Part shown: positions 2,470 through 18,349 of the stretch, piece by piece
Layout of the letters: every line of letters begins with the position of its first letter
Position numbering within the stretch: the stretch's first letter is position 1
Source of the DNA: Microtetraspora malaysiensis
GTDB lineage: Bacteria > Actinomycetota > Actinomycetes > Streptosporangiales > Streptosporangiaceae
NCBI RefSeq assembly: GCF_001528665.1
Contig: NZ_BBYJ01000032.1
Location: 1 to 64,000, forward strand
Length of the DNA stretch: 64,000 nucleotides
Reading direction: 5' to 3'
Position numbers and translations under genes: made by a program
The notes under the pieces: model-generated
Told to the model about the DNA's origin: nothing
Seen by the model: the letters and a program-made list of their open reading frames with translations, nothing else
Database searches by the model: none

Positions 2470-2605
2470 TCCGTCCGGAGTCCCGCCCCGGCGACGTCGG
2501 CGGCCGCATCGCTGTGATCTTCCGGTGGCCGGTGACACAGGCCCGGCCACCCCTGACATCCCCCAGACACGGTGCCGCTTCGCGGGCACACGTGTCCTCA
2601 CCCTC

Positions 2606-2620
2606 CTGAACATCATTCAG
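2606..2620. promoter_or_regulatory. Operator copy 3, before the transporter genes
   Basis: CTGAACA-T-CATTCAG keeps the CTGAA...TTCAG arms with two mismatched inner positions. It lies 28 bp before the ATG of the binding-protein gene. This suggests a second start point of transcription under the same repressor as the acyl-CoA dehydrogenase genes. No convincing -35/-10 pair is visible here. Confidence 0.5.
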
Positions 2621-2647
2621 TCGCATTGCTCGGCTGAGGAGGCCGCT

Positions 2648-3889
2648 ATGAGATCACGCCACATCCGTCTTTCCGCGATTTCGCTCAGTGCGCTGCTCGC
2701 GCTCACCCTGTCCGCGTGCGGCGCGTCCGGGAGTGACGGCGCGTCCGGCGACGACGCGGACAAGCCCTTCATCGTCTACTTCACCGGGGACTACTCCGGG
2801 GCGGTCTCCACCAACAACGCGAGCCTGGACGCGGGTATCAAGATCGCCGCCGAGGAGTTCAACGCCGCCGGGGGGATCAACGGCCGCAAGATCGTCGTCG
2901 AGACGGCCAACGACCAGAACGACCCGACCAAGGCGGTCAGCCTGCTCCAGCAGCGGCTCTCCTCCGGCAGCAAGCCCGACCTCGTCTATCCCGGCGGCTC
3001 CAGCGCGGTCTCGTTGTCGCTGCTGCCCATCCTGAGCAGGCAGAAGATCCTGTCCGTCGGTGGCACCGTGAGCACCCTGCTCAACGACCCGGCCAAGTTC
3101 CCCTACCACTTCGGGATCTCCTCGCCCGGTAAGGACTACGCGCCCGCGCTGATCAGCGAGGCGAAGGCCAAGGGCTACAAGAAGATCGCGATGCTGTACT
3201 CCAACGACGCCACCGGGCAGAGTTCGGCCGAGATCTACAAGGAGGCCGTCGAAGGCGCGGGCATGCAGTTCGTCGAGGCCCGCTACGAGGCCACCGCGCT
3301 CGACATGACCTCCCAGCTCAGCCAGCTCCGCGCGCAGGACCCCGACGCCCTCATCCTCAACGGGTACGGCGCAGCCGCCCTGTACGTGATGCGCAGCCGA
3401 GCCCAGATCGGCTGGGACGTCCCGTCGTACTGCGACCAGCTCGCCTCCGGCTTCCCGTACATGAAGAACCTGGACGCCGGGCAGTTGAAGAACATCAATG
3501 TGGTGGTCTCCACCGCGACCCTGGCCTCCACCGAGCCCCACCCGGGTCTCGCCGGCTTCATCGAGAAGATCAAGAAGGGCCCGGCGGCCGACGGGATCGC
3601 CAGCACCGGCGTGGGCCTGTACACCACGGGACACGACGCGCTCGCGCTCGTCGTCTACGCGGCGCAGCAGGCCAAGTCCACCGACTCCGACAAGGTCAAG
3701 GCCGAACTGGAGAAGCTGCCCCAGCCCACCGGCGCCCCCCTGTGGTACTCCGGCGGACCGGCGGGACAGTACGTGCAGTACGCCTACACGGCGCAGGACC
3801 ACTTCCCGACCGCGAGCGAGGAGACCTTCCAATACGTCGCGCCCGGCGTGTTCGACGGCGACGGTTTCTACGCCTCCGGCAAGGCGTGA
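2648..3889 (+). CDS. Liv-type ABC transporter substrate-binding lipoprotein
   Basis: A 413-residue Peripla_BP_6 type binding protein. The N-terminus has positive residues, a hydrophobic stretch and the lipobox LSAC (Cys around residue 23), so it should be lipid-anchored outside the membrane. The mature part begins KPFIVYFTGDYSG and contains FNAAGGINGRKI, both typical of branched-chain amino acid or aromatic acid binding proteins. ATG 2648 follows GAGGAGG at 2636-2642; the longer in-frame extension upstream is rejected. It heads the permease and ATPase genes. Because the neighbours are beta-oxidation enzymes, the ligand is more likely an organic acid than an amino acid; that is inference. Confidence 0.92.
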   Translation: MRSRHIRLSAISLSALLALTLSACGASGSDGASGDDADKPFIVYFTGDYSGAVSTNNASLDAGIKIAAEEFNAAGGINGRKIVVETANDQNDPTKAVSLLQQRLSSGSKPDLVYPGGSSAVSLSLLPILSRQKILSVGGTVSTLLNDPAKFPYHFGISSPGKDYAPALISEAKAKGYKKIAMLYSNDATGQSSAEIYKEAVEGAGMQFVEARYEATALDMTSQLSQLRAQDPDALILNGYGAAALYVMRSRAQIGWDVPSYCDQLASGFPYMKNLDAGQLKNINVVVSTATLASTEPHPGLAGFIEKIKKGPAADGIASTGVGLYTTGHDALALVVYAAQQAKSTDSDKVKAELEKLPQPTGAPLWYSGGPAGQYVQYAYTAQDHFPTASEETFQYVAPGVFDGDGFYASGKA

Positions 3890-3896
3890 GGTCCCG

Positions 3897-4763
3897 ATGA
3901 CGACGGTCTGGGCCGGACTGGCGACCGGCGCGATCTACTCCCTGATCGCGATCGGGTACAACATCGTGCTGCTCGCCTCCGGGACGTTCAACTTCGCCCA
4001 CGCGCAACTCCTGATGGTGGGAACGTTCCTCGCCTACACGGGGGCGGTCACCTTCGGGCTGCCCGTGCTGCCGACCGTGCTGCTGGCCGCCGCCGGGGTG
4101 GCGGTCATCGCCCTCGTGGAGGAGCGCGTCGCCATCCGGCCGCTGCTCGGCCGCACCGACAGCCACGGCACGCTGATCACCACGGTCGGAGCGGCCACCA
4201 TCCTCGACGGCCTGGCCGCCGCCATCTGGGGCAGGCAACCGCTGACCGTGCCCCCGGTCCTGCCGGACGAGCCGCTCACCCTGCTCGGCGGCACCGTACG
4301 GCCGGTGGACCTGGCGCTCATCGGGTTCACCCTGGTCGTCGGCGTCGGCCTGCACCTGTGGTCCCGGCACACGCTGACCGGCCTGGCGTCCCTGGCCTCC
4401 GCTGAGGACAGGGACGCCGCCTCGGCCCGCGGCATCAACGTGCGGCTGCTCGGCGTCGGCGCGTTCGCCGTCGCCGGGGCCGTGGCCGGCGTGTTCGGGC
4501 TGCTGGTCGGGGCACGCACGTACGCCGTCTTCGACCTCGGCCACTCCCTGGCGCTGTTCGGGTTCGTGGCTATCGCGATCGGCGGCTCCGGCAGCCAGCT
4601 CGGCGGGCTGATCGGAGGTTTCGCCACCGGACTCGTCTACGCGTTCGCCGCCAGGTACATCGGCGCGGCGTACCCGCAGATCGTCGTCTTCGGGGTGTTC
4701 CTCCTCATCCTGTTCCTGCGACCGCGCGGGCTCTTCGGTGCCGCGCTCGAACGGCGGGTGTAG
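3897..4763 (+). CDS. Branched-chain-type ABC transporter permease (LivH family)
   Basis: A 288-residue integral membrane protein with about eight hydrophobic segments. The N-terminal GAIYSLIAIGYNIVLLASG followed by FNFAHAQLLMVG is the LivH family hallmark. ATG 3897 lies 7 nt after the binding-protein stop codon. The longer reading frame to the left overlaps that gene and is an artefact. It forms the membrane channel with the LivM half of the next gene. Confidence 0.93.
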   Translation: MTTVWAGLATGAIYSLIAIGYNIVLLASGTFNFAHAQLLMVGTFLAYTGAVTFGLPVLPTVLLAAAGVAVIALVEERVAIRPLLGRTDSHGTLITTVGAATILDGLAAAIWGRQPLTVPPVLPDEPLTLLGGTVRPVDLALIGFTLVVGVGLHLWSRHTLTGLASLASAEDRDAASARGINVRLLGVGAFAVAGAVAGVFGLLVGARTYAVFDLGHSLALFGFVAIAIGGSGSQLGGLIGGFATGLVYAFAARYIGAAYPQIVVFGVFLLILFLRPRGLFGAALERRV

Positions 4764-4765
4764 CC

Positions 4766-6616
4766 ATGAACGCACTCATCCACCGGTTCCGCCCGCTGGG
4801 CGTGCTCCTCGTGCTGGTCCTGCTGCTGATCGCGCCCACGGTCGGCCTGCTCGACGGCTACTGGTCCCGTACGGTCATGCTGATCGCGATCCTCAGCCTG
4901 CTGGTCAGCGGCCTGAACGTGGTCCTCGGCTACGCGGGGGAGCTGGCCATGGGCCAGGTCGCCCTGTACGCCGTGGGCGCCTACGTCGCCGGATACCTCG
5001 GGGTCGAGTTCGGCCTGACGAACGTGCTGGTCGCCCTGCTCGCCGCCATGCTGGCCGCGGTCGTGGTCGGGCTGATCACCGGCATTCCCGGGTTGCGGCT
5101 CGGCGGCTGGTCGCTGGCCATGGTGACCTTCTTCCTGGTCACGCTGGTGCCGAACCTGGTGGACGTCTTCTCCGACGTCACCGGCGGCACGCTCGGCATG
5201 GCCACCGCCGTACCGACCCTGTTCGGCATGGAGATCGTCGGCGATCGGCTGTACTGGCTGGTCATCCTGGTCGTGATCGCCTGGTTCACGGTCGCCCGCA
5301 ACCTGCTGCTGTCCCGGCACGGCAACATGTTCCTCGTCCTTCGGCAGAGCCCGATCCTCGCCTCCGTGCTCGGCGTCTCGGTGTACCGGCTCAAGCTGCT
5401 GGTCTACGTCGTCGGCGCGATCCCGGCGGCGCTGGCCGGCGCGCTGTTCTCCATGCTGGACGGGTTCATCGCGCCCGACACCTTCACCTTCGCGCTGGCG
5501 CTCAGTGTGCTCGCCGCATCCGTCGTCGGCGGCGCGACCTCCGTGTACGGCGCCATCGCGGGCGCGGCGGTGATGCAGCTCGGCCAGCAGACCTTCACCC
5601 AGTTCCAGACCTGGCAGCTCGTCATCTACGGTGCCTTCCTGCTGATCGCCGGGATCGCCTTCAACCGGGGGCTGGTCGGGCTCTTCCAGGACGGGCTGGC
5701 CGCAGCGCGCCGCAGGGGATGGTTGCCCGCCCGCCCGGCCACGGCCGCCATACCACCCGGCGGGGACGGACCGGTGGAGACCCGGCTGGAACCGCTGGAC
5801 GGCGTGGTCCTGCGCACCGAGGGACTGAGCAAGTCCTTCGGCGGCAACCGGGCGCTCGACGACGTCACCGTCGAGGCCCACCCCGGCGAGGTCACCGCGC
5901 TCATCGGTCCCAACGGGTCGGGCAAGACCACCCTGCTCAACCTGATCTGCGGCCTGTACAAGCCCTCCGGCGGCCGGTTGCTGCTCGGCGACCAGCAGAT
6001 CGGCGGGCAGCCGACGTACCGGATCGCCCGGCACGGCGTCGCCCGTACCTTCCAGACGCCGCTCATCCCCAAGGACATGACCACGCTCGCCTTCGTCGCG
6101 ACCGGCAGGTACATGAACCACAAGGTCGGCATCCTGCCCGCGATCCTGCGGCTGCCGACGTTCCGCCGGGGGTACACGGCCGACGACGAGCGGGCCATGG
6201 CGCTGCTGCGGCTGGTCGGCATCGCCGACGTCGCGGGCAAGCAGGTGGACTCCCTGGCCCTGGGCACCCGGCGGCTGGTCGAGGTGGCCCGCTCGCTCGC
6301 CTCAGGGGCACGGGTCTTCCTCTTCGACGAGGTCGGGTCCGGCCTGGACGAGAGCGACCTCGCCGTGCTCGAACGGGCGATCGGCATGATCCGTGAGGCC
6401 GGAGGCACCGTGATCCTCGTCGAGCACAACTTTCCGCTGGTGCTCAAGCTGGCCGACCGGATCCACGTGCTCAGCCAGGGCAGGCTGCTCGCCTCCGGCA
6501 CCCCGGCCGAGATCCAGGCCGACCGCAGGGTCCTCGCCGAGTACACCGGCGCGACCGACCTGCCCGAGGAGCCGGACGACGCGCACACCCCCGCGACGCC
6601 GAAGGGAGCCAACTGA
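4766..6616 (+). CDS. Fused LivM permease and LivG ATPase
   Basis: One 616-residue protein joins two subunits that are usually separate. Residues about 1-325 are a LivM permease with many hydrophobic helices (GYAGELAMGQVALYAVGAY is typical). After a linker, residues about 345-600 form an ATP-binding domain with Walker A GPNGSGKTT near residue 381, Q-loop RTFQTP, Walker B FLFDE and the H-loop VEHN. The ABC signature is poor: SLALGTRR stands where LSxGQ-type residues are expected. The ATG is 2 nt after the LivH stop; the stop overlaps the LivF start as TGATG. The partner ATPase LivF has a normal signature, so the importer may have one weak ATP site. Confidence 0.93.
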   Translation: MNALIHRFRPLGVLLVLVLLLIAPTVGLLDGYWSRTVMLIAILSLLVSGLNVVLGYAGELAMGQVALYAVGAYVAGYLGVEFGLTNVLVALLAAMLAAVVVGLITGIPGLRLGGWSLAMVTFFLVTLVPNLVDVFSDVTGGTLGMATAVPTLFGMEIVGDRLYWLVILVVIAWFTVARNLLLSRHGNMFLVLRQSPILASVLGVSVYRLKLLVYVVGAIPAALAGALFSMLDGFIAPDTFTFALALSVLAASVVGGATSVYGAIAGAAVMQLGQQTFTQFQTWQLVIYGAFLLIAGIAFNRGLVGLFQDGLAAARRRGWLPARPATAAIPPGGDGPVETRLEPLDGVVLRTEGLSKSFGGNRALDDVTVEAHPGEVTALIGPNGSGKTTLLNLICGLYKPSGGRLLLGDQQIGGQPTYRIARHGVARTFQTPLIPKDMTTLAFVATGRYMNHKVGILPAILRLPTFRRGYTADDERAMALLRLVGIADVAGKQVDSLALGTRRLVEVARSLASGARVFLFDEVGSGLDESDLAVLERAIGMIREAGGTVILVEHNFPLVLKLADRIHVLSQGRLLASGTPAEIQADRRVLAEYTGATDLPEEPDDAHTPATPKGAN

Positions 6617-7368
6617 TGTTGTCCGTCACCGGAGTCACCGGCGGATACGGCGACCTGCGCGTTCTGTGGGACGTGGAGGTGACCGTACGGCCCGGACGGA
6701 TCACCGTCGTGCTCGGCCGCAACGGCGCGGGGAAGACCTCGCTGCTGTCGGCCGTCGCGGGCCTGCTGCCCACCGTGAGCCAGGGCAGGATCGAGCTGGA
6801 CGGCCAGGACCTGGCCGCCGCCCCCGCGCACCGCAGGGTGCGGTCCGGGCTGGCCCTCGTTCAGGAGAACAAGCGGGTCTTCCGCGCCAGGACCGTCGAG
6901 GAGAACCTGCTCCTCGGCGGCTACACCCTCGGCGGGTTCGGCCTGCGCCGCGGCGCCCGCCGGGCGGCCCTGGAACAGGCGTACGAGCGCTTCCCCGTCC
7001 TGCGGGAGCGGCGGCGCGCCCCGGCGGGCAGCCTGTCCGGCGGCCAGCAGCAGATGCTCGCCATCGGCCAGGCGCTGATGCCGGGGCCCAAGCTGCTGAT
7101 GCTCGACGAACCCTCCGCCGGGCTCGCCCCCTCCATCGTCAACGAGGTCCTCACGATGGTGGCCGCGCTGCGCGACCAGGAGGGGTTGTCGATCCTCCTC
7201 GTCGAACAGCGGATCGAGCACGCCCTGGAGATCGCCGACGACGTCGCGGTCATGGAGAACGGACGCATCATCACCGCCGGTCCCAAGTCCGCCTTCGACG
7301 ACGGCGCGGTGATCCGTGAGGTGTATCTGGGCCGGTCCGGCGAAGAGCTGGCCCCCGGCAACCACTGA
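6616..7368 (+). CDS. Branched-chain-type ABC transporter ATPase (LivF family)
   Basis: A 250-residue cytoplasmic ATPase. It has Walker A GRNGAGKTS, signature LSGGQQQM, Walker B LLMLDEPSAGL and the switch histidine region replaced by VEQR, as is normal in LivF. It overlaps the fused LivM-LivG gene by one base. It completes a four-gene importer with one binding protein, two permease domains and two ATPase domains. Confidence 0.94.
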   Translation: MLSVTGVTGGYGDLRVLWDVEVTVRPGRITVVLGRNGAGKTSLLSAVAGLLPTVSQGRIELDGQDLAAAPAHRRVRSGLALVQENKRVFRARTVEENLLLGGYTLGGFGLRRGARRAALEQAYERFPVLRERRRAPAGSLSGGQQQMLAIGQALMPGPKLLMLDEPSAGLAPSIVNEVLTMVAALRDQEGLSILLVEQRIEHALEIADDVAVMENGRIITAGPKSAFDDGAVIREVYLGRSGEELAPGNH

Positions 7369-7382
7369 AAGGAATGAACCCC

Positions 7383-8129
7383 ATGCGTTTGAAGGACAGG
7401 GTCGCCGTGGTGACCGGCGCCGCGCAGGGCATCGGCCGTGCCGTCGCCGAGCTGTACGCCAGGGAGGGCGCGCGGGTCGCGGTCGTGGACGTGCAGGCCG
7501 AGGCCGCGGAGAAGGTCGCCGCGGGCATCCGCGAGTCCGGCGGCGACGCCGTCGCGGTCGTGTGCGACGTGTCGGACCGGGCGGCGGTGAACGAGGCCGC
7601 CGCCACGGTCAAGGAGACGTACGGCCCGATCGACATCCTGGTGAACAACGCGGGGGTGACCCGCCCGGCGATGGTGCACAAGATGACCGAGGAGCAGTGG
7701 GAGACCGTGCTGGCGGTCCACCTGCACGGCTCGTTCTACTGGTTGCAGGCCGTGGTCCACGACATGATCGAACGGGAGACCGGCCGGATCATCTTCACCT
7801 CCTCCTCCACGGCGCAGAACGGCTCGATCGGCCAGATCAACTACGCCGCCGCCAAGTCCGGCATGCTCGGCATGGTCCGTACCGCCGCCCGCGAGCTGGG
7901 CCGCTACAACATCCTGGTCAACGCGGTCGCCCCGGCCGCGGCGACCGAGATGACGCTCAAGGTGCGGACCGACCCGCGCTTCGCTGACGCGGTCAAGCGG
8001 CTGCCGCTGCGCCGCCACGCCGAACCGGAGGAGATCGCGCCGACCTTCGTCTACCTGGCCTGCGCCGAGTCCGGCTACATGACGGGCCAGGTGCTCTCGG
8101 TGGACGGCGGCGGGATGATGGTGCGTTGA
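7383..8129 (+). CDS. SDR family oxidoreductase (FabG-like)
   Basis: A 248-residue classical short-chain dehydrogenase/reductase. It shows the TGAAQGIG nucleotide-binding motif, NNAG, the catalytic Ser in TSSSTA and Tyr-x3-Lys in YAAAK. The C-terminal SVDGGGMM is typical of FabG-like enzymes. GAAAGGA at 7367-7373 is 9 nt before ATG 7383 but directly touches the alternative ATG 7374, so 7383 is chosen. In this operon it most likely oxidises a hydroxyacyl-CoA or a ring alcohol; the substrate is inferred only from context. Confidence 0.9.
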   Translation: MRLKDRVAVVTGAAQGIGRAVAELYAREGARVAVVDVQAEAAEKVAAGIRESGGDAVAVVCDVSDRAAVNEAAATVKETYGPIDILVNNAGVTRPAMVHKMTEEQWETVLAVHLHGSFYWLQAVVHDMIERETGRIIFTSSSTAQNGSIGQINYAAAKSGMLGMVRTAARELGRYNILVNAVAPAAATEMTLKVRTDPRFADAVKRLPLRRHAEPEEIAPTFVYLACAESGYMTGQVLSVDGGGMMVR

Positions 8130-8131
8130 CG

Positions 8132-9274
8132 GTGACGGCGAGCCCGCGGGGTCCGCTCGACGGAGTACGGGTGGTGACCTTCGCCCCGCTCTACCAGGGG
8201 CCGCACGCGACGACACTGCTGGCCGAGCTCGGCGCGGACGTCGTCACGGTCGAACGGCCGGGCACCGGCGACGGCGCCCGCGTCCAGGGACACATGTTCG
8301 GGGCGCTCAACCGGGGCAAGCGTTCCATCACCCTGGACCTGAAGGACCCGGAGGACCGGGAGAGGGCCGGGCGGCTCGCCGGGACGGCGGACATCCTCGT
8401 CGAGGCGTTCCGGCCCGGCACCATGGACCGGTACGGCCTCGGCTATCCGCGGCTCAGCGCCGCCAACCCCGGCCTGGTGTACGTGTCGTTGTCCGGGTTC
8501 GGTCAGGACGGCCCGTACCGGGATCGGGCCGGGCACGACCTCATGTACCAGGCGGCGGCCGGGCTGCTCGACGCGCTGGCCGACCGCCCCGGCGCGGTCC
8601 ACCCGCCGCCCGACCTGGAGGCCGGGGCCATCGTCGGCGCGCTCTACACGGTCATCGGCGCGCTGGCCGGGCTGGTCGGCCGGTCCGCCCTGGGCCGGGG
8701 CACGCACATCGACCTGTCCACCCACGAGGCGCTGCTCTCCGTGATCCCGCTGCGACTCGACCCGGTGCTCAACGGCGGCGGGGTGCCACGGAGAGCCGGC
8801 CACGATCCCGGATACGGCCTCTACCGCTGCGCCGACGGCCGGCTGATCGCGCTCGGCATCGGCTTCGAGGACCACTTCTGGACGGCGTTGTGCGGGGTGA
8901 CCGGCCTGGCCGAGTACGCCACTCTGCCGCAGGCCGACCGGGTGGCCGCGTGCGACGAGATCGTCGCCCGGTTGTCCGAGGCGCTGGCCACCCGCCCGTA
9001 CCCGGAGTGGCAGGCCGAGTTCGACCGGATCGGCGTGCCCGCCGGCCCGGTCAACCGGCTCACCGACATCCCGGCCGACCCGCACGTACGGGCCCGTGCG
9101 GTGATCCGCGCCACGCGCGGCCACCCGGCCCGGCAGTACGTTCGGCAGCCGCTCCGGCTGAGCGGATACCCCGAACCCGAACCAGGCCCGCCCCCCGAGC
9201 TGGGCGAGCACACCGCTTCGCTCCTTCGTGAGCTGGACGACCCGTCACTCCACCCCGAGGAGGTACAGCTATGA
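8132..9274 (+). CDS. CaiB/BaiF (family III) CoA transferase
   Basis: About 380 residues. Family III transferases move CoA between carboxylic acids. The start contains GPLDGVRVV, followed by ELGADVVTVERPGTGD, NRGKRSITLDL and the catalytic aspartate in GHDLMYQ (about residue 136). The start codon is either TTG 8126, overlapping the preceding stop, or GTG 8132; neither has a good ribosome site, so translational coupling is likely. Together with the acyl-CoA ligase downstream it gives two ways to load CoA on the imported acid. Confidence 0.9.
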   Translation: MTASPRGPLDGVRVVTFAPLYQGPHATTLLAELGADVVTVERPGTGDGARVQGHMFGALNRGKRSITLDLKDPEDRERAGRLAGTADILVEAFRPGTMDRYGLGYPRLSAANPGLVYVSLSGFGQDGPYRDRAGHDLMYQAAAGLLDALADRPGAVHPPPDLEAGAIVGALYTVIGALAGLVGRSALGRGTHIDLSTHEALLSVIPLRLDPVLNGGGVPRRAGHDPGYGLYRCADGRLIALGIGFEDHFWTALCGVTGLAEYATLPQADRVAACDEIVARLSEALATRPYPEWQAEFDRIGVPAGPVNRLTDIPADPHVRARAVIRATRGHPARQYVRQPLRLSGYPEPEPGPPPELGEHTASLLRELDDPSLHPEEVQL

Positions 9275-11379
9275 CCCCGACCCAGGACCGGCCGGCGCTC
9301 GACCGGCTGCTCTCGCCCCGCTCGATCGCGATGGTCGGCGCGTCGAACAGCCCAACCCGCATCGGCGGCACCGTGTTCGGCAACCTGCTGCGGAACTTCC
9401 CCGGCGAGGTGTACCCGGTGCACCCCAAGGACGAGGTCGTCCAGGGCCGTACCGCCTACCGCAGCGTGCGCGATGTACCGGAGGCCGTGGACATGGCGGT
9501 GATCGCGGTGCCCGCCCCGGCCGTCGTGGACGTCGTCGCCGAGTGCGCGGCCCTCGGCGTCGGCGGCGCGACCGTCATCACCTCCGGCTTCGCCGAGGCG
9601 GGGCCGGAGGGCCGCGCGCTCCAGGACCGGCTCACCGCCGTGGCCCGCGAGACCGGCATCCGCGTCATTGGCCCCAACTGCATCGGCTACATGAACACGC
9701 ACGGCGGCGTGATGGCCAACTTCATGCTCACCCCGGATCAGCCGATGCCGGAGGCGGGCCCGGTGGCGCTCGTCTCGCAGAGCGGCGGCTTCGGGTCGTA
9801 CATCACCAACAAGGCCGTGCTCGCCGGGCTGCGGCTCGGCTGGTTCGTCTCCACCGGCAACGAGGCCGACGTGAACGTGGCCGCCGTGCTGCGCCACCTG
9901 GTGGAACGGCCCGAGGTCGGCGTGCTGCTCTCGTTCGTCGAGACCCTGCGCGACCCCGAGGTGTTCGTGGACACCGCCCGCCGCGCGGCGGAACTCGACA
10001 AGCCGCTGGTGCTGCTCAAGGCGGGCCGCTCGGAGGAGGCCGCGCGGGCCGCGATGAGCCACACCGCGTCCATCGTCGGCTCCGCCCAGGTGCTCGACGC
10101 GGTCTGCCGCCAGTACGGCGTGTTCGTCGCCTCCACCATGGAGGAACTGCTCGACCTCGGCACGATCTTCCAGGACGGCCGCCGGACCGCCGGTGACCGG
10201 GTGATCGTCATGACCTCCTCCGGCGGCGCGGGTGTCCTGCTCGCCGACGAGGCCGGGCAGGCCGGGCTGTCGGTGCCGGAACTCCCGCAGGACGAGCAGG
10301 CCGCCCTCGCCGCCGACATGCCGGTGCCGTTCTACGGCAGCACGGCCAACCCGGTGGACACCACCGCGCAGACCACGGCCATGCCCGACGCGTACCGCAA
10401 GGTGCTGAACAAGGTCGCGGCCAGCCCGTCCGCCGACATGCTGACCGCCGTCACCTGGGCGGGCCCCGGACCGGCCAACGATGCGATCGTCGAGATGTAC
10501 CGGACCACCACCAAGCCGGTCGCCATCCTGTCCACCGCCTGGTCCCCGCAGTTCCAGCAGGCCGGGGTGCCGACCTTCACCGACCCGTGCCGCGCCATGG
10601 TCGCCCTCGCCGCGCTGGCCAGGCAGTCGGACCGCGGCCCGCTGCCGCCCGACCCCGCCGCGTTCGCCGCCGACGCCGGCCGCGTACGACGGGTCCGCGA
10701 GCTGATCGCCGAGGCCGGGACGGAGACCACGCTGCTGGAATCCACCGGCAAGCGCATCCTCGCGATGTACGGCATCCCGGTCACCCGGGAGGAGATGGTC
10801 ACCGGCGAAGACGCGGCGGTCGAGGCGGCCGAGCGGATCGGCGGCCCGGTCGCGATCAAGGTGATGTCCTACCAGCTTCCGCACAAGTCCGACGCCGGGG
10901 CGATCCGGCTCGGCCTGCGCGGCCCGGACGCCGTACGCGCCGGATACCGGGACATGTTCGACGAGGTGGCCCGCCGCGCGCCCGGCGCGGCCGTGGAGGG
11001 TGTGCTCGTCCAGCAGATGGCCCCCGCCCGGCTGGAACTCACCTGCGGCGTGCAGCGCGACCCCGTGTTCGGCCCCATGGTCGCGATCGGGCTCGGCGGC
11101 GTCCTGGTGGAGGTGCTGAGCGAGGCCGTGTTGGTGCGGCCCCCGTTCGACGTGGACACCGCGCGGGCGGCGCTCGGCCACCTGCTCGGCGGACGGCTGC
11201 TCACCGGGCGGCGCGGCCTGGCCGAGGAGGAGCAGCGGGCCGCCGCCGAGATCATGACCGGCCTGGCGACGCTGGCCCTCGAACTGGGCGAGATCGCCGA
11301 GATCGACGTCAACCCGCTGCGAGTCGCCGACGGCGCCCTCCTCGCCGCGGACGCGCTGATCGTGGTGAACCATGACTGA
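9271..11379 (+). CDS. NDP-forming acyl-CoA ligase, single chain
   Basis: A 702-residue protein of the acetate-CoA ligase (ADP-forming) superfamily. Order of domains: CoA-binding Rossmann domain (SPRSIAMVGAS, residues about 12-140), ligase domains with a conserved SHTASIVG segment near residue 263 that carries the phospho-accepting histidine region, then a C-terminal ATP-grasp domain (about 480-700) with GGPVAIKVMS and HKSDAGAI. It activates a carboxylic acid with ATP and CoA and is reversible in this family. ATG 9271 overlaps the transferase stop (ATGA) and follows GAGGAGG. Substrate not predictable from sequence alone. Confidence 0.9.
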   Translation: MTPTQDRPALDRLLSPRSIAMVGASNSPTRIGGTVFGNLLRNFPGEVYPVHPKDEVVQGRTAYRSVRDVPEAVDMAVIAVPAPAVVDVVAECAALGVGGATVITSGFAEAGPEGRALQDRLTAVARETGIRVIGPNCIGYMNTHGGVMANFMLTPDQPMPEAGPVALVSQSGGFGSYITNKAVLAGLRLGWFVSTGNEADVNVAAVLRHLVERPEVGVLLSFVETLRDPEVFVDTARRAAELDKPLVLLKAGRSEEAARAAMSHTASIVGSAQVLDAVCRQYGVFVASTMEELLDLGTIFQDGRRTAGDRVIVMTSSGGAGVLLADEAGQAGLSVPELPQDEQAALAADMPVPFYGSTANPVDTTAQTTAMPDAYRKVLNKVAASPSADMLTAVTWAGPGPANDAIVEMYRTTTKPVAILSTAWSPQFQQAGVPTFTDPCRAMVALAALARQSDRGPLPPDPAAFAADAGRVRRVRELIAEAGTETTLLESTGKRILAMYGIPVTREEMVTGEDAAVEAAERIGGPVAIKVMSYQLPHKSDAGAIRLGLRGPDAVRAGYRDMFDEVARRAPGAAVEGVLVQQMAPARLELTCGVQRDPVFGPMVAIGLGGVLVEVLSEAVLVRPPFDVDTARAALGHLLGGRLLTGRRGLAEEEQRAAAEIMTGLATLALELGEIAEIDVNPLRVADGALLAADALIVVNHD

Positions 11380-11818
11380 CCGCAGCCATCTCATCGGGCA
11401 CACCTACACGCCGTACACGTTCCCGGTGGAACACGGGAAGGTGCGCGAGTTCGCCGGGGCGGTCAAGGACGACGACCCCGTCTACCGCGACGTCGAGGCG
11501 GCCAGGGCCGCCGGGTACGCGCACCTGCCCGTGCCGCCGACGTTCTCCGCCGTGACCTCGCACTGGGCCGTACGGGACACCGACGTGCTGGGGCTCGACC
11601 TGCGCCGGGTCCTCGCCGGCGGCTCGGAGTGGGAGTACCTGGGCGATGTCGTCGCCGGCGAGTGGATGACCGTGCGGTCCAGGATCGCCGACGTGCAGTA
11701 CAAGACCGGCAGTCGCGGGCCGATGACGCTCGTGATCACCGAGTACGACTTCGTCAACCAGCACGAGGAGACCGTGTTGCGGCTGCGCAGCACGGTGATC
11801 GAATTGGGGGAGCAGTGA
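11372..11818 (+). CDS. FAS1-like / MaoC N-terminal hot-dog dehydratase subunit
   Basis: A 148-residue single hot-dog domain of the MaoC_dehydrat_N type. The segment EFAGAVKDDDPVYRDVEAAR and PVPPTFSAV are typical of non-catalytic partners such as HadA/HadC. It overlaps the ligase gene by 8 nt and is followed by a MaoC protein of the same length that has the catalytic motif. The two are expected to form a heteromeric enoyl-CoA hydratase. Confidence 0.85.
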   Translation: MTDRSHLIGHTYTPYTFPVEHGKVREFAGAVKDDDPVYRDVEAARAAGYAHLPVPPTFSAVTSHWAVRDTDVLGLDLRRVLAGGSEWEYLGDVVAGEWMTVRSRIADVQYKTGSRGPMTLVITEYDFVNQHEETVLRLRSTVIELGEQ

Positions 11819-12261
11819 GAGAGCCGGACACCGTGCCGGCGGCCCCGGAGCGCCGGGTCGGGCCGCTGACCCGCACCGACTTCGTCAGGTACGCCGGAGC
11901 GGGCGGAGACTTCAACCCGATCCACCACGACGAGACCTTCGCCCGCGCCGCCGGATATCCGTCCGTCTTCGGGCACGGACTGCTCACCGCCGGGATCCTC
12001 GGCGGCTACGCGGCCTCCTGGCTGGGCCGGCGCAACCTGCGCCGGTTCAACGTCCGCTACGTCGGCCAGGTCTGGCCTGGCGACACCCTCGTCTTCAGCG
12101 GCGAGGTTCTGCGAACCGAGACGGGCCCGGACGGCTCGGTCGAGGTCGAGGTCGGCCTGGCCGTCCACAGCGAGGCCGACGGGCGCGAGCCCCGGCTGGT
12201 GTTGCGCGGTGGGGCCACCGCCGCCTACCCGGCCCCCGCCACAGAGGGGAGCCGGTCATGA
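11815..12261 (+). CDS. MaoC-family enoyl-CoA hydratase, catalytic subunit
   Basis: A 148-residue hot-dog protein with the hydratase-2 motif GDFNPIHHDETFA; Asp32 and His37 are the predicted catalytic pair. It should add water to a 2-enoyl-CoA. GTG 11815 overlaps the upstream stop (GTGA) and has a GGGGGAG ribosome site at 11806-11812. A longer upstream reading is rejected. Companion to the FAS1-like subunit before it; the pair resembles ChsH1/ChsH2 of cholesterol side-chain degradation. Confidence 0.9.
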   Translation: MREPDTVPAAPERRVGPLTRTDFVRYAGAGGDFNPIHHDETFARAAGYPSVFGHGLLTAGILGGYAASWLGRRNLRRFNVRYVGQVWPGDTLVFSGEVLRTETGPDGSVEVEVGLAVHSEADGREPRLVLRGGATAAYPAPATEGSRS

Positions 12262-12641
12262 CCGGGCCCGCACCGCACCGCGAGTACACCGACCGGCTCA
12301 CCGCCGGGAGCCTGCCGTACCAGAGCTGCGACGGCTGCCTGTCCGCTGTCTTCCCGCCCCGGGTGATCTGCCCGTTCTGCGGGGCCACCGACCTGGGCTG
12401 GCGGGAGAGCGCCGGACTCGGCACGGTCTACTCGACCAGCGTCATCGCGCCCCGCGACGCCGACCCCTACCCCGTCGTGCTGGTCGATCTCGATGAGAGA
12501 TTCCGGATCATGAGCACCGTCGTGGACGTCCCCGCGGGGGACGTGCGGATCGGGATGCGGGTCCGCGCCGGCATCGATCCCGGCGGGCCGACCGGCCCCC
12601 GGGTCGTCTTCACCCCCGAGGAACGGGAGACCGCGTCATGA
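12258..12641 (+). CDS. DUF35 Zn-ribbon/OB-fold protein
   Basis: A 127-residue protein with an N-terminal rubredoxin-like zinc ribbon, CDGC at about residues 28-31 and CPFCG at about 39-43, followed by an OB-fold. In steroid side-chain degradation the DUF35 domain of ChsH2 binds the thiolase-like aldolase Ltp2 and completes its active site. Here it is a separate polypeptide directly before a thiolase-like gene (ATGA overlaps on both sides), so the same partnership is inferred. Confidence 0.9.
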   Translation: MTGPAPHREYTDRLTAGSLPYQSCDGCLSAVFPPRVICPFCGATDLGWRESAGLGTVYSTSVIAPRDADPYPVVLVDLDERFRIMSTVVDVPAGDVRIGMRVRAGIDPGGPTGPRVVFTPEERETAS

Positions 12642-13804
12642 CTCTGCCCGACCTGCGGGGCTCGACCGCGATCGTGGGGGTCGCCGAGTCCGATCTCGGC
12701 GAGGTGGGACCCGACAGGTACGCCATCGAACTGGCCGCCCAGGCCGCCGGAGCCGCGCTCGCTGAGGCGGGACTGACCACCCGCGACGTGGACGGGCTGT
12801 TCTGCGCCATCGCCGGGCGCGGGATGGCGCCGCTCGATGTGGCCGAATACCTCGGCATCCGGCCCAGATACACCGACGGCACGATGGTCGGCGGCAGCTC
12901 CTTCATCTCCCACCTGCACCACGCCGCCCTGGCCATCACCACCGGGGCCTGCGACGTCGCCCTGATCACGTACGGCAGCACCGCCCGCTCCGACAGCGGA
13001 CGCGGCAGGCTCGCCATGGGGCCGCCCGAGCTGCCGTCGTACGAGGCCGCCTACCGGCCGCGCCCGCCGATCACCGGGTACGCGCTGGCCACCGCCCGGC
13101 ACATGCACCAGTACGGCACCACCCGCACCCACCTGGCCGAGGTCGCCGTCGCCGCCCGGAAGTGGGCCGCGCTCAACCCGAAGGCGTTCGTCCGCGACCC
13201 GCTGACCATCGAGGACGTGCTGGCCGCCCGCATGGTGTCCAGCCCGCTGACCACGCTCGACTGCTGCCTGGTCACCGACGGCGGCGGCGCGGTCGTGGTC
13301 ACCGGCGCCGACCGGGCCCGCGACCTGCCCAAGCCGCCGGTCTACCTGCTGGGCGCGGGCGAGGCACACTGGCACCGCGCGATCTCCCAGATGCCCGACC
13401 TGACCGTCACCGCCGCGACCGAGTCCTCCGTCCGCGCCTACACGATGGCCGGGGTCGGGCCACAGGACGTGGACGTGGTGCAGCTCTACGACGCCTTCAC
13501 CATCAACACCATCCTGTTCCTCGAAGACCTCGGCTTCTGCGCGAAGGGCGAGGGCGGCGACTTCGTCTCCGGCGGCCGGATCGCGCCCGGCGGCGACCTG
13601 CCGGTCAACACCAACGGCGGCGGGCTGTCGTACTGCCATCCAGGGATGTACGGCATCTTCCCCCTCATCGAGGCGACCCGGCAGATCCGCGGCGAGGCGG
13701 GCGACCGGCAGCGGCCCGGCGTGACGATCGCGCTCGCACACGGCAACGGCGGCCAGCTGTCCAGCCAGGTCACCGCCGTCCTCGGAGGAGGGGACAGCCT
13801 GTGA
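12638..13804 (+). CDS. Thiolase-fold protein, probable Ltp2-type acyl-CoA aldolase
   Basis: A 388-residue protein of the SCP-x/lipid-transfer thiolase family. The nucleophilic cysteine of thiolases is missing: the segment around residues 84-89 reads VGGSSF where a Cys is expected. The C-terminal Cys-x-G motif is replaced by AHGNGGQ (about 367-373). The NEAF-like motif is LYDAFT with Tyr284. True thiolysis therefore looks unlikely. Retro-aldolases such as Ltp2 also lack these cysteines, use tyrosines and need a DUF35 partner, which is encoded just upstream. I infer C-C cleavage of a 3-hydroxyacyl-CoA. A plain 'acetyl-CoA acetyltransferase' name would be misleading. Confidence 0.88.
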   Translation: MTLPDLRGSTAIVGVAESDLGEVGPDRYAIELAAQAAGAALAEAGLTTRDVDGLFCAIAGRGMAPLDVAEYLGIRPRYTDGTMVGGSSFISHLHHAALAITTGACDVALITYGSTARSDSGRGRLAMGPPELPSYEAAYRPRPPITGYALATARHMHQYGTTRTHLAEVAVAARKWAALNPKAFVRDPLTIEDVLAARMVSSPLTTLDCCLVTDGGGAVVVTGADRARDLPKPPVYLLGAGEAHWHRAISQMPDLTVTAATESSVRAYTMAGVGPQDVDVVQLYDAFTINTILFLEDLGFCAKGEGGDFVSGGRIAPGGDLPVNTNGGGLSYCHPGMYGIFPLIEATRQIRGEAGDRQRPGVTIALAHGNGGQLSSQVTAVLGGGDSL

Positions 13805-14565
13805 GCCCCGTACTCACCGAACACGACGGCCCGGTGCTGACCGTGACGCTGAACCGGCCGCAGGTGCTCAACGCCCTGGACGCCACCACCCTGCACGCGC
13901 TCGCCGACGCCTGGCAGGAGGCGGCCGACCCCGGAGTCAGGGCCGTCGTCGTCACCGGCAGCGGCCGGGGCTTCTGCGCCGGGGCCGATCTGCGCGCCCC
14001 GGCCGACCCGTCCCCGCCCGGTGGGCTGCGTCGCGCCTACCACCCGCACGTGCTCGCGATGGCCGCGCTGGACAAACCCGTGATCGCCGCCGTGAACGGC
14101 CCAGCCGCCGGAGCCGGGCTGTCCCTCGCCGCCGCCGCCGACGTGCGGGTCGCCGCCGACACGGCCAGGTTCGTCCCGGCCTTCGCCGCGATCGGGCTGG
14201 TGCCCGACGCCGGGGGCGCGTACTTCCTGCCCCGGCTGCTCGGCTACGCCCGTACGTACGAGTGGCTGGCCACCGGTCGCCCGCTCGACGCCGAGGAGGC
14301 CCTGCGCTGGGGGCTGGTGTCCCAGGTCGTTCCGGTGGACGACCTGCTCGCCACCGCCCTCGACCTGGCCCACCGGATGGCCGCCGTGCCGGGGGCCGCG
14401 CTTGGGCTCACCAAACAGCTGCTCGACTACGGCCTGACCCACGGCCTGGCCGACCTGCTGAACGAGGAGGAACGGCTCCAGGCCCGCGCCGTGGCCGACC
14501 CCGCCAGGCAGCGGGCCCGCGCCGAGACGGTCGGCCGCCTTTCCCGCGAAAAGGAGAACCGATGA
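13801..14565 (+). CDS. Enoyl-CoA hydratase/isomerase (crotonase family), first copy
   Basis: 254 residues. It shows the crotonase landmarks LNRPQVLNALD, GFCAGADL and NGPAAGAGLSLAAAADV. The second acidic position is Asp in GLVPDAGG, as in PaaG-like proteins, so it may be an isomerase or a hydratase. GTG 13801 overlaps the previous stop and follows GGAGGAGGGG at 13784-13793. The gene reads on into a second crotonase. Confidence 0.9.
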   Translation: MSPVLTEHDGPVLTVTLNRPQVLNALDATTLHALADAWQEAADPGVRAVVVTGSGRGFCAGADLRAPADPSPPGGLRRAYHPHVLAMAALDKPVIAAVNGPAAGAGLSLAAAADVRVAADTARFVPAFAAIGLVPDAGGAYFLPRLLGYARTYEWLATGRPLDAEEALRWGLVSQVVPVDDLLATALDLAHRMAAVPGAALGLTKQLLDYGLTHGLADLLNEEERLQARAVADPARQRARAETVGRLSREKENR

Positions 14566-15365
14566 GTGACTACACGACATTGCTGGTGGACGTGGACGAC
14601 GGGCTCGCCACCATCTCGCTGAACCGCCCCGACCGGCTGAACGCCATCGGCGGCGGACTGGAGCGGGAACTGGCCGAGGCACTCAGAGAGGTCGCCGCCC
14701 GCCGGGACGTGCGGGCCGTCCTGCTGCGCGGCGAGGGACGGGCGTTCTGCGTCGGCGGCGACGTCAAGGAGATGGCGGTACATGCGGAGGACGAGGAGGG
14801 ACCCAGCGCAGGACAGCAGGTCTACCAGATCCTGCACGGCCGCGACATCCTGGAGACCATCCTGTCTGTGCCGCAGCCCGTCGTGGCCGCCGTCCACGGA
14901 TATGCGATGGGGCTGGGCGCGACGATCGCGCTGTTCTGCGACGTCGTGATCGCCGCCGAGGACGCGCAGTTCGCCGACACCCATGTCGCGGTCGGCCTGG
15001 TCGCCGGGGACGGCGGGGCCGTCGCCTGGCCGCTGGCCATGCCGCTTGGCGCGGCCAGGTACTACCTGATGACCGGCGACCGGCTCGACGGCGCGGAGGC
15101 CGCCCGGCTCGGGCTCGCCCTGCGGGCCGTACCCGCCGGGGACCTGCCGGCCGAGGCGACCGCCGTCGCCCGCAGGCTGGCCGCCGCCGCACCGCTCGCG
15201 GTGCAGGGAACCAAGGCCACGGTCAACAAGATCGTGCGCGAGCGGATGAATCTGGTGCTCGACTTCGGGCTGGCCCTGGAGGGCGGCACGTTCGTCAGCG
15301 ACGACCACAAGGAGGCCGCCGCCGCGTTCGTGGCGAAGCGCGCCCCCGTGTTCCGGGGCCGGTGA
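14562..15365 (+). CDS. Enoyl-CoA hydratase/isomerase (crotonase family), second copy
   Basis: 267 residues. Motifs LNRPDRLNAIGG, AFCVGGDVKEM and GYAMGLGATIAL place it in the crotonase family. It differs clearly from the preceding copy, so the pair is not a recent duplication. The ATG overlaps the upstream stop (ATGA) and follows AAGGAGA. The two crotonases plus the MaoC pair give three potential hydration/isomerisation steps in one operon. Confidence 0.9.
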   Translation: MSDYTTLLVDVDDGLATISLNRPDRLNAIGGGLERELAEALREVAARRDVRAVLLRGEGRAFCVGGDVKEMAVHAEDEEGPSAGQQVYQILHGRDILETILSVPQPVVAAVHGYAMGLGATIALFCDVVIAAEDAQFADTHVAVGLVAGDGGAVAWPLAMPLGAARYYLMTGDRLDGAEAARLGLALRAVPAGDLPAEATAVARRLAAAAPLAVQGTKATVNKIVRERMNLVLDFGLALEGGTFVSDDHKEAAAAFVAKRAPVFRGR

Positions 15366-15370
15366 CGCCG

Positions 15371-16144
15371 ATGGACATCGTGGTCTGCGTCAAATACGTC
15401 CCCGACATGGCCGACCAGCCCCGGTTCACCGCCGACCACCGGGTGGACCGGGCGGGCGGGCAACTCTCCGAGCTCGACGAGTACGCGGTCGAACAGGCGC
15501 TGCGCGTCGCCGACACCGTGCCGGGCACACACGTCACCCACCTGACCGTCGGCCCGCCCCCCGCCGCCGAGGCGCTGCGCCGCGCCCTGGCCATGGGCGG
15601 CGATGCCGCCGTCCACGTCAGCGACGACGGCATCGCCGGATCCGATGCGCCCGCGACCGCGCTGATCCTGGCCGCCGCGCTGCGCCGCCTCACCCCCGAC
15701 CTCGTCCTGTGCGCGATGGCCTCCACCGATGGCGGCACGTCACTGGTTCCGGCCATGCTGGCCGAACACCTGGAGTGGCCCCAGCTCACCTTCGCCGCCG
15801 AGATGACGCTCGACCAGGGCGGCACCGTACAGATCAGGCGGGAGGCCGCAGGGGAGGTGCGGCACCTCGCGGCGGAACTGCCCGCCGTCGTGTCGGTGAC
15901 CGACCGGATCGGCGACCCGCGCTACCCGTCCTTCAAGGGGATCATGGCGGCCAAGAAGAAACCCTTGGACACCTGGACCCTCGCCGACCTCGGCGTGCCC
16001 GCCGACCGGGTCGGTCCGGCCGCCCGAACGGTCGTGGACGGGATCACCGCCAGGCCGCCCCGGGCCGCCGGGACGATCGTGCCCGCCGAAGGCGAAGGAG
16101 GACGGCGACTCGCCGACTTCCTGTCCACGCAGAAGTTCATCTGA
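15371..16144 (+). CDS. etfB: Electron transfer flavoprotein beta subunit
   Basis: 257 residues. It begins MDIVVCVKYVPD, as ETF-beta proteins do, which is why ATG 15371 is preferred over GTG 15362. Other landmarks are ASTDGGTSLVPAMLAE and the C-terminal PRYPSFKGIMAAKKKP. With the alpha subunit it takes electrons from the acyl-CoA dehydrogenases and passes them to the respiratory chain. No ETF-quinone oxidoreductase is in this window. Confidence 0.95.
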   Translation: MDIVVCVKYVPDMADQPRFTADHRVDRAGGQLSELDEYAVEQALRVADTVPGTHVTHLTVGPPPAAEALRRALAMGGDAAVHVSDDGIAGSDAPATALILAAALRRLTPDLVLCAMASTDGGTSLVPAMLAEHLEWPQLTFAAEMTLDQGGTVQIRREAAGEVRHLAAELPAVVSVTDRIGDPRYPSFKGIMAAKKKPLDTWTLADLGVPADRVGPAARTVVDGITARPPRAAGTIVPAEGEGGRRLADFLSTQKFI

Positions 16145-16150
16145 GGAGGG

Positions 16151-17116
16151 ATGGCCGTGTCAGATGTTCTGGTGCTCGTCGGGCACCTCGCGGGACCGGT
16201 CGGCAAAGCGAGTCTGGAACTGCTCACCCTGGCTCGACGCTTGGGCGACCCGGTCGCCGTCTGCGCGGGTACGGTCGACGAGCGGGCCGTGGAAACCCTC
16301 GGCAGGTACGGCGCGCGGCGGGTCCACGTCATCGAATCCGATGACGTGCGGGAGTACCCGGTGGCCTGGGTACGCGCCCTGGCCGACCTCACCGCCGACA
16401 CCCGGCCGGTGGCCGTACTGACCGAATCCACCCCGGACGGCAGGGAGACGGCGGCCCGCCTTGCCGTACGGCTGGACAGCGGCGTCCTCACCGATGTTGT
16501 GGACATCCAGGACGGACCGGACGGACCGGTTGCCACCCAGTGGGCGTTCGCCGCGGGCTACACCGTCACCTCCCGGGTGGTCGGAGGCATCCCGATCATC
16601 GCGGTCAAATCCAACGCCGCTGTGCCCGAGGAGGCCCCAGCCACGCCGGCGGTCACCCGGAGTCCGCTCGTGCTCGACGAGGCCGACCGCCGTACCAGGG
16701 TGGTGTCCCGCGAACCCCGGGAGAGCACCGGCCGGCCCCAGCTCACTGAGGCCGACATCGTCGTGTCAGGTGGTCGGGGCCTCGGCGGGGCCGAGCAGTT
16801 CGAGCTGATCGAACGGCTCGCCGACGCGCTGGGCGGCGCGGTCGGCGCGTCCCGCGCGGCGGTGGACGCGGGCTGGTACACGCACACCCACCAGGTCGGG
16901 CAGACCGGCGTCACGGTGTCCCCGCAGCTCTACATCGCCGTCGGGATCTCCGGCGCGATCCAGCACCGCGCCGGAATGCAGACCAGCAAGACCATCGTGG
17001 CCGTGAACAAGGACGCCGAGGCGCCCATCTTCGAACTCGCCGACTACGGCGTGGTCGGCGACCTGTTCGAGGTGGTGCCGCAGCTTCTGGACGAGGTCGC
17101 CAGGCGGCGGGCCTAG
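16151..17116 (+). CDS. etfA: Electron transfer flavoprotein alpha subunit
   Basis: 321 residues. The C-terminal FAD domain has the signature segments [36 protein letters not shown] and [21 protein letters not shown] 16151 follows GAGGAGGG with good spacing. Its presence next to the catabolic genes suggests an ETF dedicated to this pathway. Confidence 0.96.
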
Positions 17117-18349
17117 ATGGGCGGCTTCCGGGAACTGCCGCGCGAAGTCAAGATCCTGACCGCCGTCGCGTTCACGGTGGCGGTCGGGTTCGGCATCCAG
17201 TCACCGGCCATCCCCGTGTTCGCGGGGGAGTTCGGGGTGGGCAGCGCGGCGGTCGGCGCGGTGGTCTCGGCGTTCGCGTTCATGCGCCTGGCCACCGGCC
17301 TGCCCGGCGGACGCCTGGTCAACCGGTTCGGGGAGCGGGCCGTGCTGACCGCCGGTATGGCGTTGCTCGCGGTCACCAGCATCCTGGCCGGGCTCTCCTG
17401 GAACTACCCGCAGCTGCTGATCTTCCGGGGCGCGTGCGGTGTCGGGTCCGCGCTCTACACCGTGTCCGCGATGAACATGCTGCTGCGGGTCACCCCTGCC
17501 TCGCACCGGGGACGGGCCACCGGCTACTTCCAGGGCGGGTACTACCTCGGCACCGTGACCGGGCCCGCCCTTGGTGGCGGGCTGCTCGGCGTCTCACCCC
17601 GGCTGCCGTTCTTCGTGTACGGCGTGGCGGTCGCGATCGCGGGTGCCATCGCGACCGTCGCGCTCTCCAAGGCCGTGCCGATCACCGATGCCGTGGCCAG
17701 GACCGGGACCGCGGCGAAAACCGGGACGGGGAACGGAGCCGGACCTGGGGCCGGTGCCGGGGACGGCCGGCCAGGGATCACCCTGGGCCGGGCGCTTCGG
17801 CACCGGTCGTACCTGGCGGCGCTGACCACCAACTTCGGGCTCGGCTGGGCGGTCTTCGGAGTCCGTGTCTCCGTGTTGCCGCTCTATCTGCTGGTCGTGA
17901 TCAAGGCCGACGCCGCCTGGATCGGCACCGGGCTCGCGGTCGGTGCGATCATGCAGGCGGTCACCCTGCCGCTCGCCGGGCGGGTGGCCGACCAGTGGGG
18001 TCGCCGCCCCTCGCTGCTGCTGGGCCAGGGACTCATCCTCGGCTGCCTCGTCATGGTCATCACGTGGCAGACTCTCGTGGCGTACCTGGCCGCGTTCGCG
18101 CTGATGGGACTCGGTACCGCCTTCTGCACCACGGGTGGGGCGGCCACCGTGGGCGACGTCACCCGGGGACGCGGCGGCACCGTGGTGGCGGGCTACCAGA
18201 TGACCGCCGACCTCGGCATGACCGTCGGCCCCCTGGTGGCCGGTCAGCTCGCCGCGTCGTACTCGTACGAGGTGGCCTTCCTGGCCACCGGCGCGGTCGT
18301 GCTGATCGGATGGATCATGGCCCTCGTTATGCCGTCCCGCCCCACTTGA
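17117..18349 (+). CDS. MFS transporter
   Basis: A 410-residue membrane protein with about 12 hydrophobic helices. It has the loop motif GGRLVNRFGERAVL after helix 2 and its repeat GRVADQWGRRPSLLL in the second half. A Gly/Ala/Thr-rich stretch around residues 195-218 is the central loop. The ATG directly follows the etfA stop codon. It probably exports or takes up a pathway compound; substrate unknown. It is the last gene of the catabolic run. Confidence 0.9.
   Translation: MGGFRELPREVKILTAVAFTVAVGFGIQSPAIPVFAGEFGVGSAAVGAVVSAFAFMRLATGLPGGRLVNRFGERAVLTAGMALLAVTSILAGLSWNYPQLLIFRGACGVGSALYTVSAMNMLLRVTPASHRGRATGYFQGGYYLGTVTGPALGGGLLGVSPRLPFFVYGVAVAIAGAIATVALSKAVPITDAVARTGTAAKTGTGNGAGPGAGAGDGRPGITLGRALRHRSYLAALTTNFGLGWAVFGVRVSVLPLYLLVVIKADAAWIGTGLAVGAIMQAVTLPLAGRVADQWGRRPSLLLGQGLILGCLVMVITWQTLVAYLAAFALMGLGTAFCTTGGAATVGDVTRGRGGTVVAGYQMTADLGMTVGPLVAGQLAASYSYEVAFLATGAVVLIGWIMALVMPSRPT

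Follow-up and report, generated by a model that had tools for sequence, protein, structure and literature searches.

A predicted hydratase-aldolase module from a sister clade of Ltp2 in Microtetraspora malaysiensis

The window analysed here is a stretch of 64,000 nucleotides from Microtetraspora malaysiensis (contig NZ_BBYJ01000032.1, positions 1 to 64,000). Four overlapping open reading frames (ORFs) on its forward strand, at 11372–13804, encode in turn a FAS1-like hydratase subunit, a MaoC subunit, a stand-alone DUF35 protein and a cysteine-less thiolase-fold protein, an order given in a preliminary description of the sequence and confirmed here by the ORFs and by strong Pfam and NCBIfam matches. 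We propose that these genes probably encode a hydratase-aldolase machine that takes a short side chain off a bulky coenzyme A (CoA) ester, most likely that of a steroid. Hydration followed by retro-aldol cleavage explains the data best and is very likely; that the substrate is a steroid is likely, though not certain. The module is a predicted functional analogue of the ChsH1-ChsH2-Ltp2 system of the igr operon, belonging to a sister clade and not to the orthologs of Ltp2. What is new here is that three Pseudomonas genomes have the operon inside a 9,10-seco steroid cluster, that one of the window's acyl-CoA dehydrogenases (subunit b) is nearest to solved steroid side-chain enzymes, and that a canonical igr cluster is present in the same M. 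malaysiensis genome.

The thiolase-fold protein and its active site

The proposed retro-aldolase (12638–13804, + strand; PF22691 Thiolase_C_1) is a member of the NCBIfam family PRK06158 (NF004811), which it matches with 620.7 bits against a curated cut-off of 421; its score to PRK07855, the family of the igr aldolase Ltp2, is 243.7 bits, below the cut-off of 469. The closest chains in the Protein Data Bank (PDB) are 4U4E, CtSal (9MYR) and TcLtp2 (6OK1), and the counterpart in Microtetraspora fusca, the nearest named relative in this comparison, is 96% identical. In a tree of 65 rows (LG+C20, SH-aLRT support), the PRK06158-like rows form one group (support 94), Ltp2 another (100) and SCPx a third (100). 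The window protein groups with sequences from Microtetraspora, Acrocarpospora and two Pseudomonas (support 99) and is excluded from both the Ltp2 and the SCPx clades, while the PRK06158-like clade stands beside Ltp2. The phylogeny against Ltp2, SCP-x and true thiolases proposed in the preliminary description thus puts the protein outside the SCPx thiolases and in a clade of its own beside Ltp2; the Ltp2 of the same genome is 36.6% identical to it and falls in a separate clade. Sal is represented by a single row on a long branch, and its placement in this tree is unsure.

The AlphaFold2 model of the protein (predicted local distance difference test (pLDDT) 87.5, predicted template modelling score (pTM) 0.90) was compared with solved structures. 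Sal (Z 51.1, root mean square deviation (rmsd) 2.1 over 373 residues), Ltp2 (Z 50.8, rmsd 2.4 over 370 residues) and 4U4E (Z 50.6, rmsd 1.9 over 352 residues) were tied, followed by SCP2 thiolases (Z about 43) and classical thiolases (about 35).

Active-site residues were counted in an alignment of 145 sequences, including 121 PRK06158-like, 15 Ltp2-type and 7 SCPx control rows. The loss of both catalytic cysteines had previously been read from the motifs VGGSSF and AHGNGGQ, both of which are found in the protein, and only the first part of this claim stood. The position of the nucleophilic Cys is Gly86 in the window protein and Gly in all 120 readable PRK06158-like rows (one row being too short), and the misaligned cysteine considered as an alternative was not borne out. 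The absence of Cys from AHGNGGQ has no diagnostic value, since this site is without Cys in SCPx-type thiolases as well: the controls, with nucleophile Cys and HDCF intact, also have His at this site (LQHNIG, 7/7). The second telling loss is in the HDCF motif of thiolases, which is YDAF in the window protein (Tyr284, Asp, Ala286, Phe). Judged from the alignment, the diagnostic losses are those of the nucleophile (Gly86) and of the HDCF Cys. The SCPx/SCP2 thiolases (PRK08256) share the fold, the His at the GHP position and the His at the second-Cys site with the window protein, but they keep the two cysteines that it has lost.

Two further residues are invariant in the 121 PRK06158-like rows. 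Tyr284 is aligned with Tyr294 of 6OK1 (YDHF), and His334 occupies the same column as Tyr344 of 6OK1. Position 286, aligned with the oxyanion-hole His296 of 6OK1, is Ala in 104 rows, including the window protein, and Ser in 17. In window numbering, the SCPx controls have Cys86, His284, Cys286 and His334 (7/7), and the Ltp2-type rows have Gly86, Tyr284 and Tyr334 (15/15), with His, Ala or Pro at 286. Mutagenesis has shown that catalysis depends on Tyr294 and Tyr344 in TcLtp2, and on Tyr302 and Cys304 in CtSal, which has Gln at the site equivalent to Tyr344 (PMC12329534). The YDCY of Sal, with its catalytic Cys304, is not present in the window protein, and the whole clade has Ala or Ser in place of this Cys. 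By alignment, the window protein combines an Ltp2-type base with a thiolase His retained at the acid position of Ltp2. Given that the catalytic pair is Tyr/Tyr in Ltp2 and Tyr/Cys in Sal, the simplest expectation for this protein is an aldolase with a Tyr/His pair; the part of His334 as the acid is a prediction only.

The Sphaerobacter "thiolase" 4U4E belongs to the same clade, with the same active-site set (Gly, Tyr, Ser/Ala, His) and 59% identity by structural alignment. A search for a publication on 4U4E in the literature library used found none; the NCBIfam and 4U4E titles name the family acetyl-CoA acetyltransferase or thiolase. These names, the thiolase fold and the retained thiolase-type His334 would fit an enzyme with thiolase or acyltransferase activity that dispenses with the usual Cys, or a decarboxylase or condensing enzyme like the malonyl-CoA-decarboxylating SLP proteins, of which TbSLP shows weak malonyl-CoA decarboxylase activity (PMC12329534). 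The loss of the nucleophile and HDCF cysteines from all members, the conserved Tyr base and the coupling of the gene to a hydratase pair and DUF35 make such a role very improbable. Even less credible is a protein without activity of its own, confined to binding acyl-CoA or to scaffolding the hydratase, as the missing cysteines of the SCPx active site might suggest: the invariance of Tyr284 and His334 in 121 sequences from Actinomycetota and Pseudomonadota would be unexpected for a dead enzyme, and one Pseudomonas strain has no other homolog at E<=1e-20 that could do the cleavage.

The hydratase subunits and the DUF35 protein

The FAS1-like (MaoC_N) subunit (11372–11818, + strand; PF13452 FAS1_DH_region, 112 bits), the MaoC subunit (11815–12261, + strand, GTG start; PF01575 MaoC, 74.5 bits) and the stand-alone DUF35 protein with zinc ribbon and OB fold (12258–12641, + strand; PF12172 zf-ChsH2, PF01796 OB_ChsH2_C) precede the thiolase-fold gene. 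The junctions among the four genes are 4-nucleotide overlaps, GTGA or ATGA; the genes are translationally coupled and are part of a larger catabolic operon. In the igr hydratase, ChsH1 bears the catalytic dyad and ChsH2 has Tyr in place of His, giving the steroid rings room (PMC11321319). The window pair is of the same type. The MaoC subunit, 35% identical to ChsH1 of its own genome, has an intact Asp/His dyad in the alignment (GGDFNPIHHD versus GRDYQDVHHD), and the FAS1-like subunit, 26% identical to the MaoC domain of ChsH2, has Tyr replacing the catalytic His (DDPVYRD versus EDDNPIYLD in the ChsH2 of the same genome). The FAS1-like subunit is probably a non-catalytic, substrate-shaping partner similar to the N-terminal part of ChsH2 (ChsH2-N). 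The resemblance to ChsH1-ChsH2-Ltp2 pointed out in the preliminary description therefore holds for the split hydratase dyad and the conserved Tyr294, but has to be qualified by the sister-clade position and the change of Tyr344 to His.

The DUF35 protein has a C4 zinc ribbon (C-x2-C-x10-C-x2-C) and matches the DUF35 subunits of 9MYR and 6OK1. It was correctly described as encoded separately, but so are most of its counterparts: of 104 homologous loci, 95 have a stand-alone DUF35 gene directly next to that of the thiolase-fold protein, and the fused form was found at none. Two of the nine loci without an adjacent DUF35 are at contig ends; at L017, L020, L023–L025, L028 and L031 there is no DUF35 within 1.5 kb of the thiolase-fold gene, and it may be elsewhere or missing. 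A separate DUF35 gene has also been published, ChsH4 with Atf1 (PMC10398937). Being the rule in the clade and already known from Atf1-ChsH4, the separate DUF35 is not the novelty of this module. The pair of FAS1-like and MaoC genes is less widespread: of the 57 loci with wide flanking sequence, just 8 have it together with the thiolase-fold gene, and 28 have a lone MaoC gene.

Three known systems are close in composition. ChsH1-ChsH2-Ltp2 (6OK1) shares a heteromeric MaoC hydratase with one subunit inert through the change of His to Tyr, a DUF35 domain, a cysteine-less thiolase fold with the Tyr of YDxF, and paired acyl-CoA dehydrogenases in the operon; it differs in that DUF35 and the inert hydratase subunit form one fused protein. 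The bile acid degradation system Shy-Sal likewise has a cysteine-less thiolase fold with the Tyr of YDxx and a DUF35 partner, but this DUF35 is fused to a homodimeric MaoC and has a C3H1 zinc finger, and Sal has the Tyr302/Cys304 pair and Gln at the position of His334. Atf1-ChsH4 of Mycolicibacterium neoaurum resembles the window module in having separate DUF35 and retro-aldolase genes in one operon, whereas Atf1 is Sal-type (56% identical to Sal1) and the operon has no hydratase pair (PMC10398937).

Predicted reaction

The reaction, the formation of a complex, the role of His334 and the exact substrate are inferred. The acyl-CoA dehydrogenase pair would introduce an alpha,beta-double bond, which would then be hydrated by the FAS1-like/MaoC heterodimer, with MaoC as the catalytic subunit and the FAS1-like subunit accommodating the rings. 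The thiolase-fold enzyme, held by the separate DUF35 protein, could cleave the resulting 3-hydroxyacyl-CoA by a retro-aldol reaction without free CoA, giving a ketone or aldehyde and acetyl- or propionyl-CoA. Tyr284 would act as the base on the hydroxyl group, and His334, inherited from a thiolase ancestor, would be the probable acid protonating the enolate. A tertiary hydroxyl rules out oxidation and thiolysis (PMC8399759). Retro-aldol cleavage instead of thiolysis, as suggested in the preliminary description, is supported by the position of the clade outside SCPx, by Gly86 and Tyr284, and by the split hydratase. It is possible, though slightly more doubtful than not, that the clade forms a third mechanistic class of DUF35-type acyl-CoA retro-aldolases, with a Tyr base and a thiolase His as acid, which is spread over Actinomycetota and Pseudomonadota and replaces both Sal and Ltp2 in some bacteria, as an undescribed route of steroid side-chain degradation.

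Steroid context and the choice of substrate

The operon was common to five genomes in the first scan, three Streptosporangiaceae and two Pseudomonas (TTU2014-080ASC and GV085), and was later found in a third Pseudomonas genome. Its neighbours in TTU2014-080ASC and GV085 are genes for KstD, a 3-ketosteroid 1-dehydrogenase (7P18, 581 bits), ketosteroid isomerase (best match 1ISK), KshA (PF19298, 242 bits; 4QDF, 414 bits) and HsaA-, HsaC- and HsaD-like proteins, with a TesEFG-like set (hydratase, acylating dehydrogenase and 4-hydroxy-2-oxovalerate aldolase) nearby. The stretch read of the third genome includes KstD, the beginning of HsaD and the TesEFG set, with KshA, HsaA and HsaC outside it. 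By their homology, the flanking genes are a 9,10-seco steroid pathway set. In TTU2014-080ASC a second homolog of the thiolase-fold protein was not found at E<=1e-20; this strain therefore has no Ltp2 or Sal.

Of the two acyl-CoA dehydrogenases at the start of the window operon, subunit b points in the same direction. Subunit a (251–1339, + strand; PF00441), a FadE28/ChsE1-like partner with a weakly conserved N-terminal half, is 31% identical over 128 amino acids to FadE28 of its own genome and has long matches to 4X28_D and Tcur3481. Subunit b (1336–2469, + strand) is 33.5% identical to the FadE29 of its own genome, and its best matches in the PDB are Tcur3483 (6WY8, 6WY9) and 4X28, which are steroid side-chain dehydrogenases, at 180–185 bits, the next match being at 134. 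A full canonical steroid cluster, with HsaC, KshA and HsaA (647 bits), is found at about 3,000–46,000 of contig C11 of the 8.8 Mb M. malaysiensis genome. It includes an igr-type series of FadE29 (ChsE2), a fused ChsH2, FadE28 (ChsE1), ChsH1 and Ltp2 (706 bits), and the window module is thus a second, parallel set and not the igr operon itself. Neither the upstream dehydrogenase pair nor this canonical cluster was mentioned in the preliminary description.

Several observations weigh against a steroid-cleaving Tyr/His aldolase. Residues 327–336 form a low-confidence loop of the model, including His334 (pLDDT < 50), and a change of Cys to His in the YDCY of Sal gave a dead enzyme (PMC12329534), although this is position 286 and not 334. 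Ring-degradation genes are absent from the 64,000-nucleotide window, the HsaA-like protein of Pseudomonas scores 401 bits against an HsaA cut-off of 450, and in Acrocarpospora corrugata the operon is present, but convincing counterparts of HsaC and HsaA were not found. Most homologs (60–65% identical, with Tyr/His conserved) are outside steroid clusters and one is near phenylpropionate genes; the enzyme type as such is therefore not confined to steroids.

The same chemistry could serve another substrate, such as the CoA ester of an aryl-propionate, of a terpenoid acid or of some other branched or aryl/alicyclic acid, imported by the branched-chain-type ATP-binding cassette (ABC) system, the steroid context in Pseudomonas having been recruited later. 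In favour of this are the non-steroid neighbourhoods of most clade members, one of them by mhpA/mhpB-type genes, the case of A. corrugata, and the ABC uptake system and CaiB, which are present in the actinobacterial operons and lacking in the Pseudomonas ones. IpfD-IpfE provides a possible precedent. It consists of a thiolase-like protein and a separate partner, IpfE, a DUF35 protein, and acts on an alpha-branched aryl acyl-CoA that arises by ring dioxygenation and not by dehydrogenation and hydration. IpfDE releases propionyl-CoA in ibuprofen degradation (PMC9195938). We nevertheless consider a non-steroid substrate rather unlikely, given that the whole operon is kept inside a steroid cluster in three Pseudomonas genomes, that the nearest PDB matches of dehydrogenase b are steroid side-chain enzymes, and that M. 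malaysiensis has a complete steroid cluster elsewhere in its genome.

Two other steroid roles were considered. A role in HIP (C/D ring) breakdown is less likely; HIP side-chain shortening requires a CoA ester product, and HIP-type genes are elsewhere in the Pseudomonas genome. Cleavage of a two-carbon side chain off C21 steroids found no support and was abandoned. In the single worked-out case, progesterone is opened by Baeyer-Villiger enzymes (PMC12239570).

Other loci were noted during the comparison. On a plasmid of Sphingobium sp. TomTYG64 (L188, 17636–19164), a 68% identical thiolase-fold gene has a small gene directly upstream and neighbours annotated as 3-(3-hydroxyphenyl)propionate hydroxylase (mhpA-type) and 2,3-dihydroxyphenylpropionate dioxygenase (mhpB-type), suggesting a non-steroid use in this branch. 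The single genome of Acrocarpospora pleiomorpha (G337) encodes 17 proteins homologous to the thiolase-fold protein (E<=1e-20). In three other Pseudomonas genomes (L185–L187), FAS1-like proteins adjoin SCPx-type thiolases and not the window-type aldolase, in a recurrent cassette of an SCPx-type thiolase (51–53% identical to the SCPx of the M. malaysiensis genome), FAS1 and MaoC, a short-chain dehydrogenase/reductase (SDR), an acyl-CoA dehydrogenase and a CoA ligase; some genomes have six FAS1-like copies. A second HsaC-like extradiol dioxygenase gene (G334:C16:23721–24590, L143) lies in a neighbourhood of HIP-type genes, IpdAB-like ones among them, as identified by eye.

Remaining genes of the operon

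The four-gene core sits in a longer series of genes on one strand, which runs from the dehydrogenase pair (starts at 251 and 1336) through a transporter of the MFS type. The dehydrogenases are followed by a branched-chain-type ABC uptake system (2525–7368, + strand; Pfam, LivF ORF) comprising a binding protein, a permease, a fused permease-ATPase and an ATPase, the fused protein being a single 616-amino-acid product of 4766–6616. Next are an SDR that is kept in the Pseudomonas operons (7374–8129, + strand; PF13561, PF00106), a CaiB-type CoA transferase with a TTG start that is confined to the actinobacterial version of the operon (8126–9274, + strand; PF02515, 309 bits) and an ADP-forming acyl-CoA synthetase (9271–11379, + strand; PF13549, PF13607), the probable activating enzyme, which is 61–62% identical to its Pseudomonas counterparts. 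Downstream of the core are two crotonase-family proteins (13801–14565 and 14562–15365, + strand; PF00378, 178 and 168 bits) and the electron-transfer flavoprotein beta and alpha subunits, EtfBA (15362–17116, + strand; PF01012, PF00766), the probable electron acceptor of the acyl-CoA dehydrogenases. The MFS transporter (17117–18349, + strand; PF07690) also closes the Pseudomonas operons. Further along the window, an adjacent ORF pair at 33300–34516 resembles an IS3-type transposase as judged by eye.

Conclusions

If the members of this clade are aldolases, many catabolic operons of soil and water bacteria have been misread as carrying an acetyl-CoA acetyltransferase. A Tyr/His pair, if true, would be a third solution for the same reaction on one fold, after Tyr/Tyr and Tyr/Cys, and would suggest that aldolases arose from thiolases step by step, with the nucleophile lost, the His of HDCF changed to Tyr and the thiolase His kept. 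The clade may provide new aldolases toward steroid synthons, and it offers a candidate enzyme for steroid degraders that have neither Sal nor Ltp2.

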